Assembly: GCA_945865675.1 (NCBI GenBank)
Contig: CAMBFO010000014.1
Span: forward strand, 1 to 40,703
Reading direction: 5' to 3'
Length of the DNA stretch: 40,703 nucleotides
From: Comamonas sp. lk
GTDB lineage: Bacteria > Pseudomonadota > Gammaproteobacteria > Burkholderiales > Burkholderiaceae_C
A program made the translations under genes and the position numbers. The notes beneath the pieces are model-generated. The model saw only the letters and a program-made list of their open reading frames with translations. It searched no databases and was not told the DNA's origin. Of the stretch, positions 35,087 through 39,980 are shown piece after piece. Position 1 is the stretch's first letter. Each line of letters opens with the position of its first letter.

Positions 35087-36751
35087 TCACTTGAGTGTTG
35101 CCATCATGGTGAGAGCTTTTTTACGCTGCTGGTCAGAACCCTTGGTAATGACTTCGTCCAAGAGGCTGCGCGCGCCTTGAAGCTCGCCGATTTCGATAAA
35201 TTGTTTTGCCAATTCCATGGAGGTGTCCAACTGCTCTGAAAAGCTTTTCGTCTGTGGAGAAGGTAAAGCTGCCCAATCCAGTGACGGCGCGTCTAAGTCA
35301 AACGCCATAGGCTCGGATACTTGGGCTTTTGCGCCTGTGGCGACGCCTTCTCCACCCTCGGTGAAGGATAGCACGGGGTCAATGCCGGGCGCGGCGCTGG
35401 CATTCTTGGTTAGCGGGCCCACCGCGGCCGTATTGGGGTAGCTTGGAGTGTCCGGCTCCATGGATTGCCTTAGCGCCTGAATCTGAGCCCAAGCCGTACT
35501 CTCGGTGCCTGCCAGCGCTTGTACTTGGTTGGCGCATAGGGCGAATTTGGTGGTGTCTTGGCGAGCGGCATAAATTTCCGCCAACTTCAGATGGATCGCC
35601 ATGCGCCTGGGGTCTTGGGCCAAGCCCTCGCGCAGTATTTCTTCCGCTGGCTCGTCTTTGCCGTAGGCTAAATAGACGTCTGCCTCCGCTAAGGGATCCA
35701 ACTCGGTGGCCAAGATGGTGGTCTGCGCCTGCACTTGCCCGTTTGAAACGCTGCTTGCCACTGGGCCGCCGCCATAGGCCGCATTATTGGCCTCTGTGTT
35801 CGTAGTCCAATGGGCCAGGTGGTTCTCTGCGGCAGCAGGCGCTGGTGCTGGTGCTTGGTGTGACTTGCGCTTGCGGGCCCAAAAAATCGCGCCGACTCCC
35901 GCGCCCAAGGCACCAAGGCCAATCAGGAGCATTCCTCGTGAATCTGAACGCGTTTCAGGTACCGGCCCCAGTAACTGGGTCTCCGCTTCCATGGAGGCAG
36001 GGCTGGACACTACTTTTTCTGAGGCCTTGGCGCCTGGCGTTAGCCCTGCTTGCGAGGTGTTTGGAAGGGGTGCGGTAACTGGCGCTACAGCGGCTATAGC
36101 CGTACTGTGGGTAACCGTCGGGCTCGGTGCATCGAGTTCCTGGGTGCGGTTGGCCGCACTAGGCGGTTTTTCTCGGTTTTCAGTAGGGCGCTTTTGGGTC
36201 TGTGCGCCTGCTAATTCGTTTGTGCTGACGGGCAGCAGGGTTGTGGCTTCTAAGGGTGGCACTGCGCCAAGCGCAGCGGTGCTAGCGGGCGCAATGCGCT
36301 CTGCTACATCGGGTGCGGCGACTAGGCCATCATCCAGCGGTGGCAGATCCAATAGCAGACGGTAGGGGCGGATCAGATGGGTGGCGCTGGAAGACACTTC
36401 AATGACCAGATCGACAAAGGGCTCGGCAATGGGGCGTTCGCTGCGCAGCTTTATCAAGCGCGTTCCATTGGGGCGGCGCAGTAATTCGATCTGTGCGTCG
36501 CCGATGGACGGGTGGTAGTCCATGTTCAGATGAAGAAATGTTTTTGGATCCGCGACGCGCGCTTTAAGGCTCAGCGCTTCCTGCGGCATGAGGTTGATCA
36601 CCTCGATCTCCGCCACCAGGTTTTGTCCAAAGTAGGACCGCACGTCGATAGGCGCCAGCGCAAGTGCATTGGCAATGCCTGCATACAGCACGCAGCTGAC
36701 CCAGAAAATGGCCAGTGGCAGATTCACAGCCAAAGCGCGCGTCCAGCCCAT
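35087..36751 (-). CDS. fimV: FimV, polar/type IV pilus assembly protein
   Basis: A 554-residue protein. Signal peptide about 1-31 (cut near ANALA), then the FimV N-terminal domain (IDVRSYFGQNLVAEIEVINL ... IRPYRLLLDLP, about 33-137), a Pro/Ala/Thr-rich periplasmic stretch, one membrane segment at about 274-291, and a cytoplasmic part with a TPR-like helix set (DVYLAYGKDEPAEEILREGL) and a FimV C-terminal cap (LAKQFIEIGELQGARSLLDEVI). I see no LysM repeat, unlike the longer Pseudomonas protein. FimV organises the pole and type IV pili. The start is ATG 36751 after a GGGGGC site; an open GTG at 36778 would lengthen the signal peptide. Confidence 0.88.
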   Translation of the reverse strand: MGWTRALAVNLPLAIFWVSCVLYAGIANALALAPIDVRSYFGQNLVAEIEVINLMPQEALSLKARVADPKTFLHLNMDYHPSIGDAQIELLRRPNGTRLIKLRSERPIAEPFVDLVIEVSSSATHLIRPYRLLLDLPPLDDGLVAAPDVAERIAPASTAALGAVPPLEATTLLPVSTNELAGAQTQKRPTENREKPPSAANRTQELDAPSPTVTHSTAIAAVAPVTAPLPNTSQAGLTPGAKASEKVVSSPASMEAETQLLGPVPETRSDSRGMLLIGLGALGAGVGAIFWARKRKSHQAPAPAPAAAENHLAHWTTNTEANNAAYGGGPVASSVSNGQVQAQTTILATELDPLAEADVYLAYGKDEPAEEILREGLAQDPRRMAIHLKLAEIYAARQDTTKFALCANQVQALAGTESTAWAQIQALRQSMEPDTPSYPNTAAVGPLTKNASAAPGIDPVLSFTEGGEGVATGAKAQVSEPMAFDLDAPSLDWAALPSPQTKSFSEQLDTSMELAKQFIEIGELQGARSLLDEVITKGSDQQRKKALTMMATLK

Positions 36752-36781
36752 GATTAGCCCCCAATTTTCGATTGCCACTAG

Positions 36782-36899: not shown

Positions 36900-38018
36900 T
36901 TAGGCTTCGAGCAGGATGCGCAACATGCGTCGTAACGGTTCGGCAGCGCCCCATAGCAGTTGGTCGCCGATCGTGAAGGCGCCCAGATACTGCGGTCCCA
37001 TGGCCAGTTTGCGTACCCGGCCGACCGCTATATCCATGGTGCCAGTGACGGCCACAGGCGTTAACTGGTGCACGCTGTCCATACGGTTGTTGGCCACAAA
37101 ACGCACCCAGGCATTGTCATTTTTTAACATCTCTTCAATATCTGCCAGGGGCACATCGCGCTTCATTTTGATGGTTAGGCTCTGGCTATGGCAGCGCATG
37201 GCACCGACGCGAACACAGATGCTGTCGATCGGCACCGGCTGGTGCTGGAGTCCCAAGATCTTATTGGTCTCGGCACCGCCTTTCCACTCTTCCAGGCTCG
37301 TTCCATCGCCCCGGTCGCTGTCGATCCACGGGATCAGGCTGCCGGCCAGCGGTGCCATGAAGTTTTTGGTTTCCTCAGCACTCAGTCCGCGTTGGGTAGC
37401 GGCGATTTGGCGGTCGATATCCAAAATCGCGCTGGAAGGGTTGTCCAATTGGGCGCGCACCGCGCTGTTGAGCGTTCCCATTTGGGTCAGCAGTTCGCGC
37501 ATATGCTGCGCGCCGCCGCCGCTGGCTGCCTGGTAGGTGGTGGCAGTCATCCATTCCACCAAATCGGCCTTGAACAGGGCGCCAAGGCCCATCAACATGC
37601 AGCTCACCGTGCAATTGCCGCCGATATAGTTTTTCACGCCGCGCGCCAATGCGGCGTCGATCACCGGGCGGTTGACCGGGTCCAAAATGATCACAGCATC
37701 GTCTTGCATGCGCAGGGTTTTGGCAGCATCGATCCAATAGCCTTGCCAGCCGCGGGCGCGCAGTTGGGGGTAAATCTTGGTGGTGTAATCGCCGCCCTGG
37801 GCGGTGATGATGATGTCGCAACGTTGGAGGCCGTCTAGATTGAAGGCGTCCTGCAAGGTGGTTTCGTTCTTGGCAACGACGGGTGCTGCGCCGCCGCTGT
37901 TGGAGGTGGAGAAAAACAGGGGTTCGATAAGGTCAAAGTCGCCTTCTGTGTGCATCCGGTCCATCAATACCGAGCCGACCATGCCACGCCAGCCGACCAA
38001 TCCTACTAACTTACGCAT
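36900..38018 (-). CDS. asd: Aspartate-semialdehyde dehydrogenase
   Basis: A 372-residue enzyme. The NADP fold begins [20 protein letters not shown], the active-site cysteine is C136 in [12 protein letters not shown], and the catalytic His is H277 in [11 protein letters not shown]. It reduces aspartyl phosphate to the semialdehyde, the branch point to lysine/diaminopimelate, methionine, threonine and isoleucine. The ATG at 38018 has AAAGGG 7 nt upstream. A candidate leader peptide and alternative hairpins occupy its 5' leader, and a candidate -10 element lies at 38205-38210. Confidence 0.97.
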
Positions 38019-38032
38019 TGCTTTACCCTTTC

Positions 38033-38114
38033 AAAAACAGTATGGGACCTGACTGTTTTCCCGGCTCGTCTGGCCGGGGGGCGCACGACGAACCGGGCTG
38101 TCTTAGCCGGTCGT
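38033..38114 (-). promoter_or_regulatory. Alternative RNA hairpins in the asd leader
   Basis: Reading toward asd. Hairpin A: ACGACCGGCT (38105-38114) pairs with AGCCCGGTTCGT (38088-38099), 10 bp with two single-base bulges and a 5-nt loop; the leader-ORF stop is at its top. Hairpin B: CCCGGTTCGTC (38087-38097) pairs with GACGAGCCGGG (38060-38070), 11 bp including one G-U. Hairpin C: CCCGGC (38073-38078) with GCCGGG (38060-38065), loop of 7. A and B share one strand, B and C share the other, so they exclude one another. Hairpin D: AAAACAGT (38052-38059) with ACTGTTTT (38034-38041), just before the asd ribosome site. C has no U-run after it, so it is not a canonical terminator. Confidence 0.5.
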
Positions 38115-38198
38115 GGTTTTGGTGATGATTGCGCGCGCACCTACCCGGGCCGCAGGGGCTAGGGTGGGGTTCAAGGTGAACAGGTGGGCGAAAAACAT
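38103..38198 (-). CDS. Candidate 31-residue leader peptide for asd (Thr-rich end)
   Basis: An ATG-initiated short ORF: MFFAHLFTLNPTLAP, then AARVGARAIITKTTTG and a TAA. The last eight sense codons are ATC ATC ACC AAA ACC ACG ACC GGC, that is Ile-Ile-Thr-Lys-Thr-Thr-Thr-Gly. Threonine, isoleucine and lysine are all end products downstream of asd, as in the Thr/Ile-rich ThrL leader of enteric bacteria. The TAA lies at the top of hairpin A. A TACAAT -10 ends six bases before the ATG, so the message would begin at or next to the AUG and need no ribosome site. No database support is available to me, and 31 codons can arise by chance. Confidence 0.45.
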   Translation of the reverse strand: MFFAHLFTLNPTLAPAARVGARAIITKTTTG

Positions 38199-38204
38199 GA
38201 CGAG

Positions 38205-38210
38205 ATTGTA
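38205..38210 (-). promoter_or_regulatory. Candidate asd -10 element (TACAAT)
   Basis: TACAAT on the minus strand, 6 nt before the ATG of the short leader ORF. No good -35 stands at 16-18 nt. If used, it makes a roughly 180-nt asd leader and an mRNA starting essentially at the leader AUG. Confidence 0.45.
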
Positions 38211-38375: not shown

Positions 38376-38411
38376 TGCCGCCTTAGCCCGAATGGCGGCA
38401 AATTTATTTTT
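38376..38411 (+). terminator. Terminator-like hairpin ahead of the flavin-barrel gene
   Basis: TGCCGCC (38376-38382) and GGCGGCA (38394-38400) form a perfect 7-bp GC-rich stem with an 11-nt loop, followed by AATTTATTTTTG. This has the layout of a Rho-independent terminator for plus-strand transcription. It lies only 14 nt before the chosen ATG, and the gene to its left is on the other strand, so it would end a short leader or small RNA rather than a gene. Confidence 0.6.
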
Positions 38412-38424
38412 GAACTGGACCACT

Positions 38425-38898
38425 ATGCTTAGCCCTGAAACGCTAGCTTGCGCCCGAAAGAGCATGCTTTGTTGGCTTGCAACGGTTGATGCCCAAGGCC
38501 AGCCCAGTGTGTCGCCTAAAGAAATATTTACTTTCTCTGCCAGTGAACATCTGCTCATCGCCAATATCGCCTCGCCAAGCAGTGTGCGAAATATTTTGGC
38601 CAACCCACGTGTTTGCGTGAGTTTTGTAGACGTCTTCGTTCAGAAGGGGTTTAAGGTCTCGGGAACAGCCCGAAATGTTCGCCCGCAGGACTTGGATTAT
38701 GAAAAATGGGTCACGCCTTTGACCGCCATGGCAGGCCCGCGTTTTCCCATTCGCAGTGTCATAGGTATCCGCGTCACGCAGTGTGAGCCAATTCTTGCGC
38801 CAAGTTACCAACTCTATGCAGAGGAAACCACGGAGCAAGCGCAAGTGGCTTCAGCCATGCGGGCCTATGGAGTGCGGCCCCTAGTGGACCGCTCTTAG
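38425..38898 (+). CDS. Pyridoxamine 5'-phosphate oxidase-like FMN-binding protein
   Basis: A 157-residue single-domain split-barrel protein of the PNPOx-like family. It shows [21 protein letters not shown], the typical strand pair at the N-terminus, then [41 protein letters not shown]. Family members bind FMN or another flavin/haem-type cofactor and mostly have unknown substrates; it is not true PdxH, which is longer. I start at ATG 38425; an in-frame ATG at 38392 would fall inside the hairpin loop and has no ribosome site. It sits alone between asd and leuB in the opposite direction, and its stop overlaps the leuB stop in a shared TTAG. Confidence 0.8.
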
Positions 38899-39980
38899 CC
38901 CAAAGCTTTCACAACCGCATCGCCCATCTCGCGCGTACCGACCTTGGATGTTCCGGGGCTGTAGATATCGGGGGTACGCAGACCTTGCGTCAACACGGCG
39001 TCCACGGCTTTTTCGATGCGGGCAGCGGCCTCAGGCTGCTTGAGACTAAAGCGCAGCATCATGGCGGCGCTCAGGATGGTGGCCAGCGGGTTGGCTACGC
39101 CCTGGCCGGCGATATCGGGCGCGCTGCCGTGGCTGGGTTCGTACAGACCCTGGTTGCGGCTGTTCAGGCTGGCCGAGGGCAGCATGCCGATGGAGCCAGT
39201 CAGCATGGAAGCTTCGTCGCTCAGGATGTCGCCGAACATATTGCCGGTCACCACCACGTCAAAGCGCTTGGGCTGCTTGACCAATTGCATGGCGGCGTTG
39301 TCCACATACATATGGTCCAACGCAACGTCAGGGTACTCTTTGCCGACTTCGGTGACCACATCTTTCCAAAACTGGAAGGTCTCCAGCACATTGGCTTTGT
39401 CCACGCTGGTGACGCGGCCTTCGCTGCCCGCGGCTTTGCGGGTGCGGGCTGCTTGAAACGCCGCGTGGGCGATGCGCTCAATTTCGGGTTTGGAGTAGCG
39501 CATGGTGTCGAAGGCTTCTTCGGCGCCGGGAAAGTGGCCATCCATGGCGGTACGCCGGCCGCGCGGTTGGCCAAAATATATGTCGCCAGTCAGTTCGCGG
39601 ATGATCAGGATGTTCAGGCCCGAGATCAATTCAGGCTTAAGGCTAGATGCATTGACCAGTTGCTCATAGCAAATAGCGGGGCGGAAATTGGCGAACAAGC
39701 CCAGGTGTTTGCGCAGGCCCAAAATGGCTTGCTCGGGCCGCAGGGCGCGCTCGAGCGTGTCGTATTTCCAGTCGCCGACCGCGCCGAACAAAATCGCATC
39801 GGCGTCTTTGGCCAATTGCAAAGTCGAATCGGGCAGCGGGTGTCCGTGCGACTCATAGGCGGCGCCACCGACAGGCGCGCTTTCCATGGTGAAGGACAGG
39901 TCCAGGGCTTTGAGCACCTTGATGGCCTCGGCCACAATTTCGGTCCCTATGCCGTCGCCCGGCAGGATTGCAATTTTCAT
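38895..39980 (-). CDS. leuB: 3-isopropylmalate dehydrogenase
   Basis: A 361-residue enzyme. It starts [18 protein letters not shown], with substrate-binding arginines in the [22 protein letters not shown] region, [30 protein letters not shown] and the metal-binding aspartates in [34 protein letters not shown] is near the C-terminus. It oxidises and decarboxylates 3-isopropylmalate in leucine synthesis. It follows leuD by 24 nt with a GAGAG-type site. Confidence 0.98.

Follow-up and report, generated by a model that had tools for sequence, protein, structure and literature searches.

What controls the expression of asd in Comamonas sp. lk? Aspartate-semialdehyde dehydrogenase (Asd) is the branch enzyme for lysine, threonine, methionine, isoleucine and cell-wall diaminopimelate, and threonine, lysine and isoleucine are all products made beyond it. 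We analysed a stretch of 40,703 nucleotides (contig CAMBFO010000014.1, here called the window), for which an initial annotation had proposed a peptide-leader attenuator in front of asd. In the window, asd lies on the minus strand at 36900..38018 (TIGR01745 asd_gamma, E 2.7e-177), with the gene of a FimV-like protein downstream (35090-36778, minus strand; FimV_N and TPR matches) and leuB upstream of the asd leader (38895..39980, minus strand; TIGR00169, E 8.7e-145). A PNPOx_N-like gene encoding 168 amino acids (38392-38898, plus strand; Pfam E 2e-16) is found between leuB and the leader, and its 3' end overlaps the end of leuB. Based on sequence comparison and folding models, we consider it likely that asd is governed by a ribosome-dependent leader switch that would monitor the threonine, lysine and isoleucine made beyond Asd, and asd is probably turned on when these three run low.

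The leader ORF consists of 31 codons and a TAA stop (38103..38198, minus strand). Its peptide, read from 38198 to 38103, is MFFAHLFTLNPTLAPAARVGARAIITKTTTG, then TAA, and the tail IITKTTTG is conserved in relatives. The putative control codons, Ile-Ile-Thr-Lys-Thr-Thr-Thr, are read from the sequence at 38109..38129 (minus strand); both the 31-codon ORF and the tail ending in Gly are present as initially annotated. Eight open codons precede 1656 stop codons in the window (both strands), and only at the leader stop do at least five of the eight encode Thr, Lys or Ile.

To define the distribution of the element, 46 leaders were aligned and used for a covariance model, R1, built on helix B (see below). 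At E<=0.01, R1 has hits in 309 of the 399 genomes sampled from the window's family, representing 117 of 141 genera, a count that is partly not independent, as R1 was trained in part on members of the window's own genus and on named contigs of unchecked family code; the matches in 21 of 23 genomes of the window's genus are circular, given this own-genus training set. An order-wide sample of 399 genomes gave 12 own-family genomes with matches at E 1.8e-10 or better, and 10 genomes outside the family that match only at 2.7e-4 to 6.4e-3. R1 was also used to fetch 101 own-family stretches, the window included, and in every one of them the core of the element is located 30-122 nt before asd. The ten weak matches outside the family were rejected, as asd adjoins none of them, and the second R1 copies in eight family genomes (E 0.0015-0.006) appear chance-like, with no asd in the fetched stretch; hence none of these 18 weak matches has asd alongside. 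Of the 90 R1-negative family genomes, 13 were read by eye, of which 10 seem to be without the element and three (G077, G105 and G150) carry diverged forms of the LeuB-tail type described below.

A usable asd match was obtained for 209 loci, many of them from Pseudomonas, and 129 were classified, namely those that combined at least 69% asd identity with a CGAGC[CT] core and a strand of the TCG type, a selection by which the invariance of CGAGC is partly a matter of construction. The classification leaves out L170, L171 and L218, in which the element is present but its core is altered, and another 17 asd loci obtained via R1; no core was seen in L015, L018 and L108. This resulted in 124 unique sequences, 79 with a separate upstream ORF (uORF class) and 45 in which the ORF is the end of leuB (LeuB-tail class), and 29 of the 124 come from the window's closest relatives (L001-L004 and L081-L119). 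Neither the window nor the loci of six relatives have a match in Rfam 15 at gathering score, and a permissive Rfam search of 521 bases returned one sub-threshold hit, which lies inside asd. A riboswitch or known Rfam leader was rejected on the lack of an Rfam match. The initial annotation knew of no described leader of this type for a stand-alone asd, and we likewise found no description of this leader in a search of an open-access library.

Among the 79 unique uORF sequences, the final eight residues contain on average 6.84 Thr, Lys or Ile (minimum 5), compared with fractions of 0.08 (T), 0.01 (K) and 0.04 (I) in the peptide body, and frequent endings are TKTTTIKG and TKTTTG. Within the final ten residues Thr occurs together with Lys in 79/79 tails, all three residues are present in 77/79, and Met is found in 4/79. 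The initial annotation took Thr, or else Ile or Lys, as the sensed amino acid; given the 77 tails with all three, we revise this and favour a sensor for the combination of Thr, Lys and Ile. Two findings that the initial annotation would have counted as refuting did not emerge: relatives conserve the ORF as well as its Thr codons, and no frame-breaking indels occur in the eight closest genomes read (L001-L004 and L082-L085), in all of which the ORF is open. A tail with at least 6/8 Thr/Lys/Ile precedes 44 of the 52 asd loci with >=70% identity. As controls, none of 56 asd loci below 70% identity, mostly from Pseudomonas, reaches 5/8, and one of 19 other families of the window's order does (L112).

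How the tail is conserved also bears on two other explanations. One is that the leader is a conserved structured RNA, bound by a ligand or protein and independent of translation of the ORF, with the codons incidental. The better conservation of the RNA core relative to most of the ORF would fit this, even though the core letters CGAGC are partly imposed by selection. However, the tail is kept as amino acids with synonymous codons (Thr is encoded by ACC 175, ACG 98, ACA 19 and ACT 8 times in the uORF class), a like tail is found at the end of LeuB, and there is no Rfam match. The spacing between stop codon and core also argues against an RNA that is indifferent to translation: counted from the first stop-codon base, it is most commonly 14 nt in both classes and falls within 13-16 nt in 78/79 uORF sequences (and in 40/45 LeuB-tail sequences). 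We therefore regard a translation-independent RNA as very improbable. We give still less credence to the idea that the ORF encodes a small functional protein and that the hairpins are unrelated mRNA structure. By eye, many uORF peptides (L136, L142, L144, L152, L153 and others) share a start like MFAARPF.LN, which lies outside the control codons; against a protein function, the middle of the peptide is variable (by eye), the leader ORF has no Pfam or NCBIfam match, and in 45 of the 124 unique sequences the tail is part of LeuB.

Upstream of the leader ORF is a conserved -10-like box, which in the window is TACAAT (38205..38210, minus strand), 6 nt before the leader ATG, and TAnnnT in relatives. 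A TAnnnT motif is present in each of the 79 unique uORF loci, 3-10 nt ahead of an in-frame ATG or GTG, in a scan that took every in-frame start and so favours finding a box. The exact TACAAT in 63/79 is far beyond the bias from scanning every in-frame start, and the gap from box to start is 6-8 nt in 73/79. The ORF is 33 codons long in 39/79 leaders. A consensus scan of the window gave no passing -35/-10 pair and no full sigma-70 consensus. Given the conserved box just before the start codon, the leader ORF is probably leaderless: the transcript would start at or near the leader ATG.

Downstream of the control codons, the minus strand can form several hairpins. Hairpin A (38096..38108; GGCT at 38108-38105 with AGCC at 38099-38096) holds the stop codon. 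Hairpin B (38060..38097), the proposed ON fold, joins strand 2 to strand 4 by 11 pairs (38097-38087 with 38070-38060), and hairpin C (38060..38078), the proposed OFF fold, joins strand 3 to strand 4 by 6 pairs (38078-38073 with 38065-38060). A and B share 38097-38096, and B and C share 38065-38060. These three hairpins and the position of the stop codon within A were already in the initial annotation and were recovered here unchanged, as was the lack of a U-run after hairpin C in the window. Besides the TACAAT box, two elements are absent from the initial annotation: an A/U-rich hairpin D (38034..38059; 38059-38052 with 38041-38034), located just before the asd Shine-Dalgarno region, and a possible anti-Shine-Dalgarno pairing, helix E, whose anti-Shine-Dalgarno strand (38079..38085, minus strand) would pair with 38028-38019 when strand 2 is covered. 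The asd Shine-Dalgarno region AAGGG and the 3' strand of helix E are at 38019..38030 (minus strand). The 40-nt B region of the window folds with z = -4.79, and 0/200 shuffles are as good. In two Rubrivivax MAGs (L007 and L009), the hairpin C region and the asd Shine-Dalgarno region each contain the 8-mer GGCGAAAC, which gives the hairpin the look of a decoy for the target site of the CGCC strand.

Pairing was compared in alignments of the uORF class (A3, 76 distinct rows) and the LeuB-tail class (A4), from both of which L166, L199, L215 and L239 were excluded. In A3, the fraction of paired cells is 98.0% for A, 95.7% for B, 97.4-100% for C and 83.3-91.9% for D, with no pair of hairpin A and one pair of hairpin B changed on both sides; the number of hairpin B pair types in A3 is not above shuffles. 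In A4, 87.0% of the cells are paired for B and 83.0% for A+C, and the covariation of B and of A+C is not above shuffles. By eye, hairpin A is out of register in A4, and so is helix F, which extends around C in the LeuB-tail leaders as a longer helix in which the sequences differ and complementarity is kept. Hence, partner-swap tests were used as well, in which swaps were scored against the real pairs of each sequence (300 each, relatedness ignored). Across all sequences, 0/300 swaps are as good as the real pairs for both the outer part of B and C; the same holds for D in the uORF class and for A, C and F in the LeuB-tail class (each 0/300), where the outer part of B gives 7/300. For hairpin A in the uORF class, where A hardly varies, the number is 116/300.

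Competition between B and C is backed by one position of strand 4, where A replaces G in nine rows of A3. All nine have U on strands 2 and 3, whereas rows with G have U on strand 2 in 20/67 and on strand 3 in 7/67 (Fisher p 7e-5 and 8e-8; position picked after looking, relatedness uncorrected). An A on strand 4 with U on both partners is what two competing helices B and C predict. The nine sequences correspond to 6 changes on the poorly resolved Asd tree, which we do not claim as six events. L218 retains all 11 pairs of B despite a change from C-G to U-A. In the LeuB-tail class the three-way change fails: strand 3 has U and strand 2 has C in both of its sequences with A on strand 4 (L010 and L221). 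Comparison of the leaders shows two pairing partners for strand 4, namely strand 2 in B and strand 3 in C. The mutual exclusivity of B and C in the initial annotation is borne out in the uORF class by the three-way change in 9/9 rows and by folding, but the evidence is weak or contrary in the LeuB-tail class. Overall, an attenuator-type reading of the asd leader is well supported by sequence comparison, although its output step has to be revised (see below).

Folding was computed downstream of the ribosome edge. For the uORF class (n = 79), a ribosome on the stop codon gives a mean P(B) of 0.05 and P(C) of 0.87, with helix E at 0.545 per base. P(B) is 0.35 when the A-site is one codon before the stop and 0.81-0.86 when it is 2-5 codons earlier, with P(C) at 0.11-0.16 and E at 0.09-0.12. 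Stalls 6-8 codons upstream give a P(B) of 0.76-0.81, and B dominates also without a ribosome (mean P 0.81). For the window leader, P(B) is 0.002 when the ribosome is at the stop, compared with 0.98-1.0 for A-site positions one to eight codons before it. As B dominates with stalls 6-8 codons upstream and with no ribosome, the control codons do not stand out in the folding model, and its dominance with no ribosome also means that the OFF state depends either on a ribosome occupying the stop codon or on slow refolding. In every state of the LeuB-tail class C dominates, P(B) increases from 0.00 only to 0.11-0.21, and B is favoured in 7/44 sequences when the ribosome is stalled. The ON/OFF fold sequence is hence predicted for the separate-ORF class; for the LeuB-tail class we infer a switch from anatomy alone, and folding does not predict it. 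In the initial annotation, stalling was to open A, raise B and lower C. The outcome agrees with the uORF folding, but A is too weak to decide between B and C at equilibrium.

The mechanism that we propose is as follows. Scarce Thr-, Lys- or Ile-tRNA would stall the ribosome in the Thr/Lys/Ile run, strand 2 would be freed, and B would form and take up a CGCCC segment, leaving asd ON. Unhindered translation to the stop codon would cover strand 2, C would form, and CGCCC would pair with the Shine-Dalgarno region (helix E), turning asd OFF. The output would be translation initiation, possibly with Rho-dependent polarity, and would involve no intrinsic terminator.

The proposed output depends on the conserved CGCCC-type segment between strands 2 and 3, the complement of which, GGGCG or a similar sequence, is the asd Shine-Dalgarno region. 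This complementarity is above letter shuffles (own value 14.63 versus a shuffle maximum of 12.41), and 0/300 swaps reach the real value across all sequences. Within the classes, two runs gave 58 and 63/300 swaps as good for the uORF class and 2 and 3/300 for the LeuB-tail class, and the covariation of helix E is weak. In folds of the free RNA (7/124 sequences skipped), at least three E pairs form in the C state in 70/73 uORF and 30/44 LeuB-tail sequences, and E is found in the B state in 0/73 and 0/44, respectively, which follows from nested folding, given that the 5' strand of E is inside B. The predicted effect on the Shine-Dalgarno region itself is small. Of 10 Shine-Dalgarno bases in the uORF class, 6.2 are paired in the OFF fold versus 5.5 in the ON fold (free RNA), or 6.2 versus 5.0 (stalled), and the mean unpaired probability is slightly higher when stalled (0.47-0.51) than at the stop (0.44). 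The LeuB-tail class has the reverse trend, with 0.47 at the stop versus 0.43-0.45 otherwise. A complement of the GGGCGA type is located 19-46 nt upstream of the ATG in 7/45 LeuB-tail leaders, separate from a nearer A/G-rich ribosome-binding site, which suggests retention for a role other than ribosome binding. At locus L239, an extra hairpin-like sequence separates the asd ribosome-binding site from the GGGCGA element, which is thus 46 nt from the ATG.

An intrinsic terminator at C was rejected, as a TTTT run within 10 nt after C is found in 0/124 unique sequences and a consensus scan of the window region gave no terminator-like site on the minus strand. A broader alternative keeps the sensing ORF and the B/C switch as proposed and assigns them a transcriptional output, by Rho-dependent termination or weak termination at hairpin D. 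We consider this unlikely, though worth weighing: in 40/79 uORF and 14/45 LeuB-tail leaders a TTTT run does occur in the stretch that extends from C to 10 nt ahead of the start codon, and hairpin D of the window ends in UUUUU. However, 39/79 uORF and 31/45 LeuB-tail leaders lack TTTT in the whole stretch, none has it directly after C, and hairpin D is A/U-rich with a folding energy of -6.3 kcal/mol, without being picked up in the terminator scan. Furthermore, in the stalled-ribosome folds of the window, D forms alongside both B and C. The lack of a terminator after C, together with a CGCCC segment able to pair with the Shine-Dalgarno region, suggests translational control, and the output is most simply read as Shine-Dalgarno sequestration and not as an intrinsic terminator.

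The most novel element of the asd leader is the form in which LeuB would act as the leader peptide. In 45 of the 124 unique sequences, hairpin A holds the stop codon of leuB and the control codons form the LeuB C-terminus, as in the example ending MGDAVVAAITKTITKG; L009 and L010 were assigned to this class by reading their tails. The window's own leuB C-terminus is without control codons, which other members carry in their LeuB tail. Hence, asd is stand-alone in the window, as the initial annotation described it, but not in the LeuB-tail relatives. After the MGDA-type motif of LeuB, 11-27 residues follow in 45/45 LeuB-tail sequences, compared with 5-8 in the 50/50 uORF sequences that have leuB in reach. 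The LeuB tails contain on average 6.33 Thr, Lys or Ile in 8 residues (minimum 3), and 41/45 have all three within ten residues. Both forms occur within one genus (L098 versus its relatives). On a tree of the Asd N-terminal part, at least 10 changes between the uORF and LeuB-tail forms are counted, but the starred branches force only 1. On balance, we lean slightly towards the view that LeuB doubles as a leader peptide, the Thr/Lys/Ile-rich C-terminal tail of which would pause ribosomes over the asd switch whenever one of the aspartate-pathway products runs short. If true, a single family would house the same sensor in two ways, in a leaderless mini-ORF or at the tail of an enzyme. It would place attenuator sensor codons at the end of a working enzyme, which is rarely searched for leader peptides, and the two forms would offer a natural experiment on the origin or fusion of a leader ORF.

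Several known systems resemble the asd leader in part. The enterobacterial thrL leader is a short ORF with Thr and Ile codons, followed by the classic hairpin choice of 2:3 versus 3:4. As in thrL, a leader ORF with Thr/Ile codons precedes a gene of the aspartate-family pathway, and translation would pick between alternative hairpins. Unlike thrL, the asd leader has Lys codons and no intrinsic terminator, B and C compete for strand 4 (2:4 versus 3:4), and its ORF is either apparently leaderless or formed by the end of LeuB. Measured against thr/trp-type attenuators in general, the asd leader has a leader ORF with codons for the products (although the LeuB-tail ORF is not short) and, in the uORF class, mutually exclusive hairpins at or after the leader stop. 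It would thus act in the manner of a ribosome-mediated attenuator, without the terminator by which the classic thr/trp type is defined. In the translational attenuators of erm and cat genes, which respond to antibiotics, stalling in the leader ORF frees a sequestered Shine-Dalgarno region. The asd leader resembles these in its proposed output and differs from them in that the sequestering strand itself would be hidden or freed by the B/C switch.

Escherichia coli thrABC is described as repressed by Thr and Ile via ribosome-mediated attenuation (PMC12925634), and the same source describes the lysine riboswitch (L box) as RNA control of Lys-pathway genes. The latter is aptamer-based, in contrast to the asd leader with its lack of an Rfam match. 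According to PMC7298713, the trpL leader ORF of Sinorhizobium meliloti begins at the 5' end of the transcript, as proposed here for the asd leader, and its attenuator regulates trpE(G) through a transcription terminator; target and terminator are both different from asd. Leader peptides without obvious terminators are described for Actinobacteria (PMC1262725), where they precede cys operons in Mycobacterium and others, and the abstract of that paper does not name asd. A widespread leader reading Thr, Lys and Ile would explain how the Asd branch point is set without a terminator across much of one family.

Another family of the same order (f14) provides a separate case. In 3/3 genomes read from it (L271, L273 and L274), asd is preceded by ORFs ending in KRTTTIITKTVMKG, SITTIITKKTKTIILV and STTIITKKTKTTVLV. 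An R1 search of the f14 member G049 gave no match, and by eye the tails are rich in Thr, Ile and Lys, with complementary strands that differ from those of the window's family. Leaders of this kind before asd may therefore have arisen more than once, or diverged beyond recognition.
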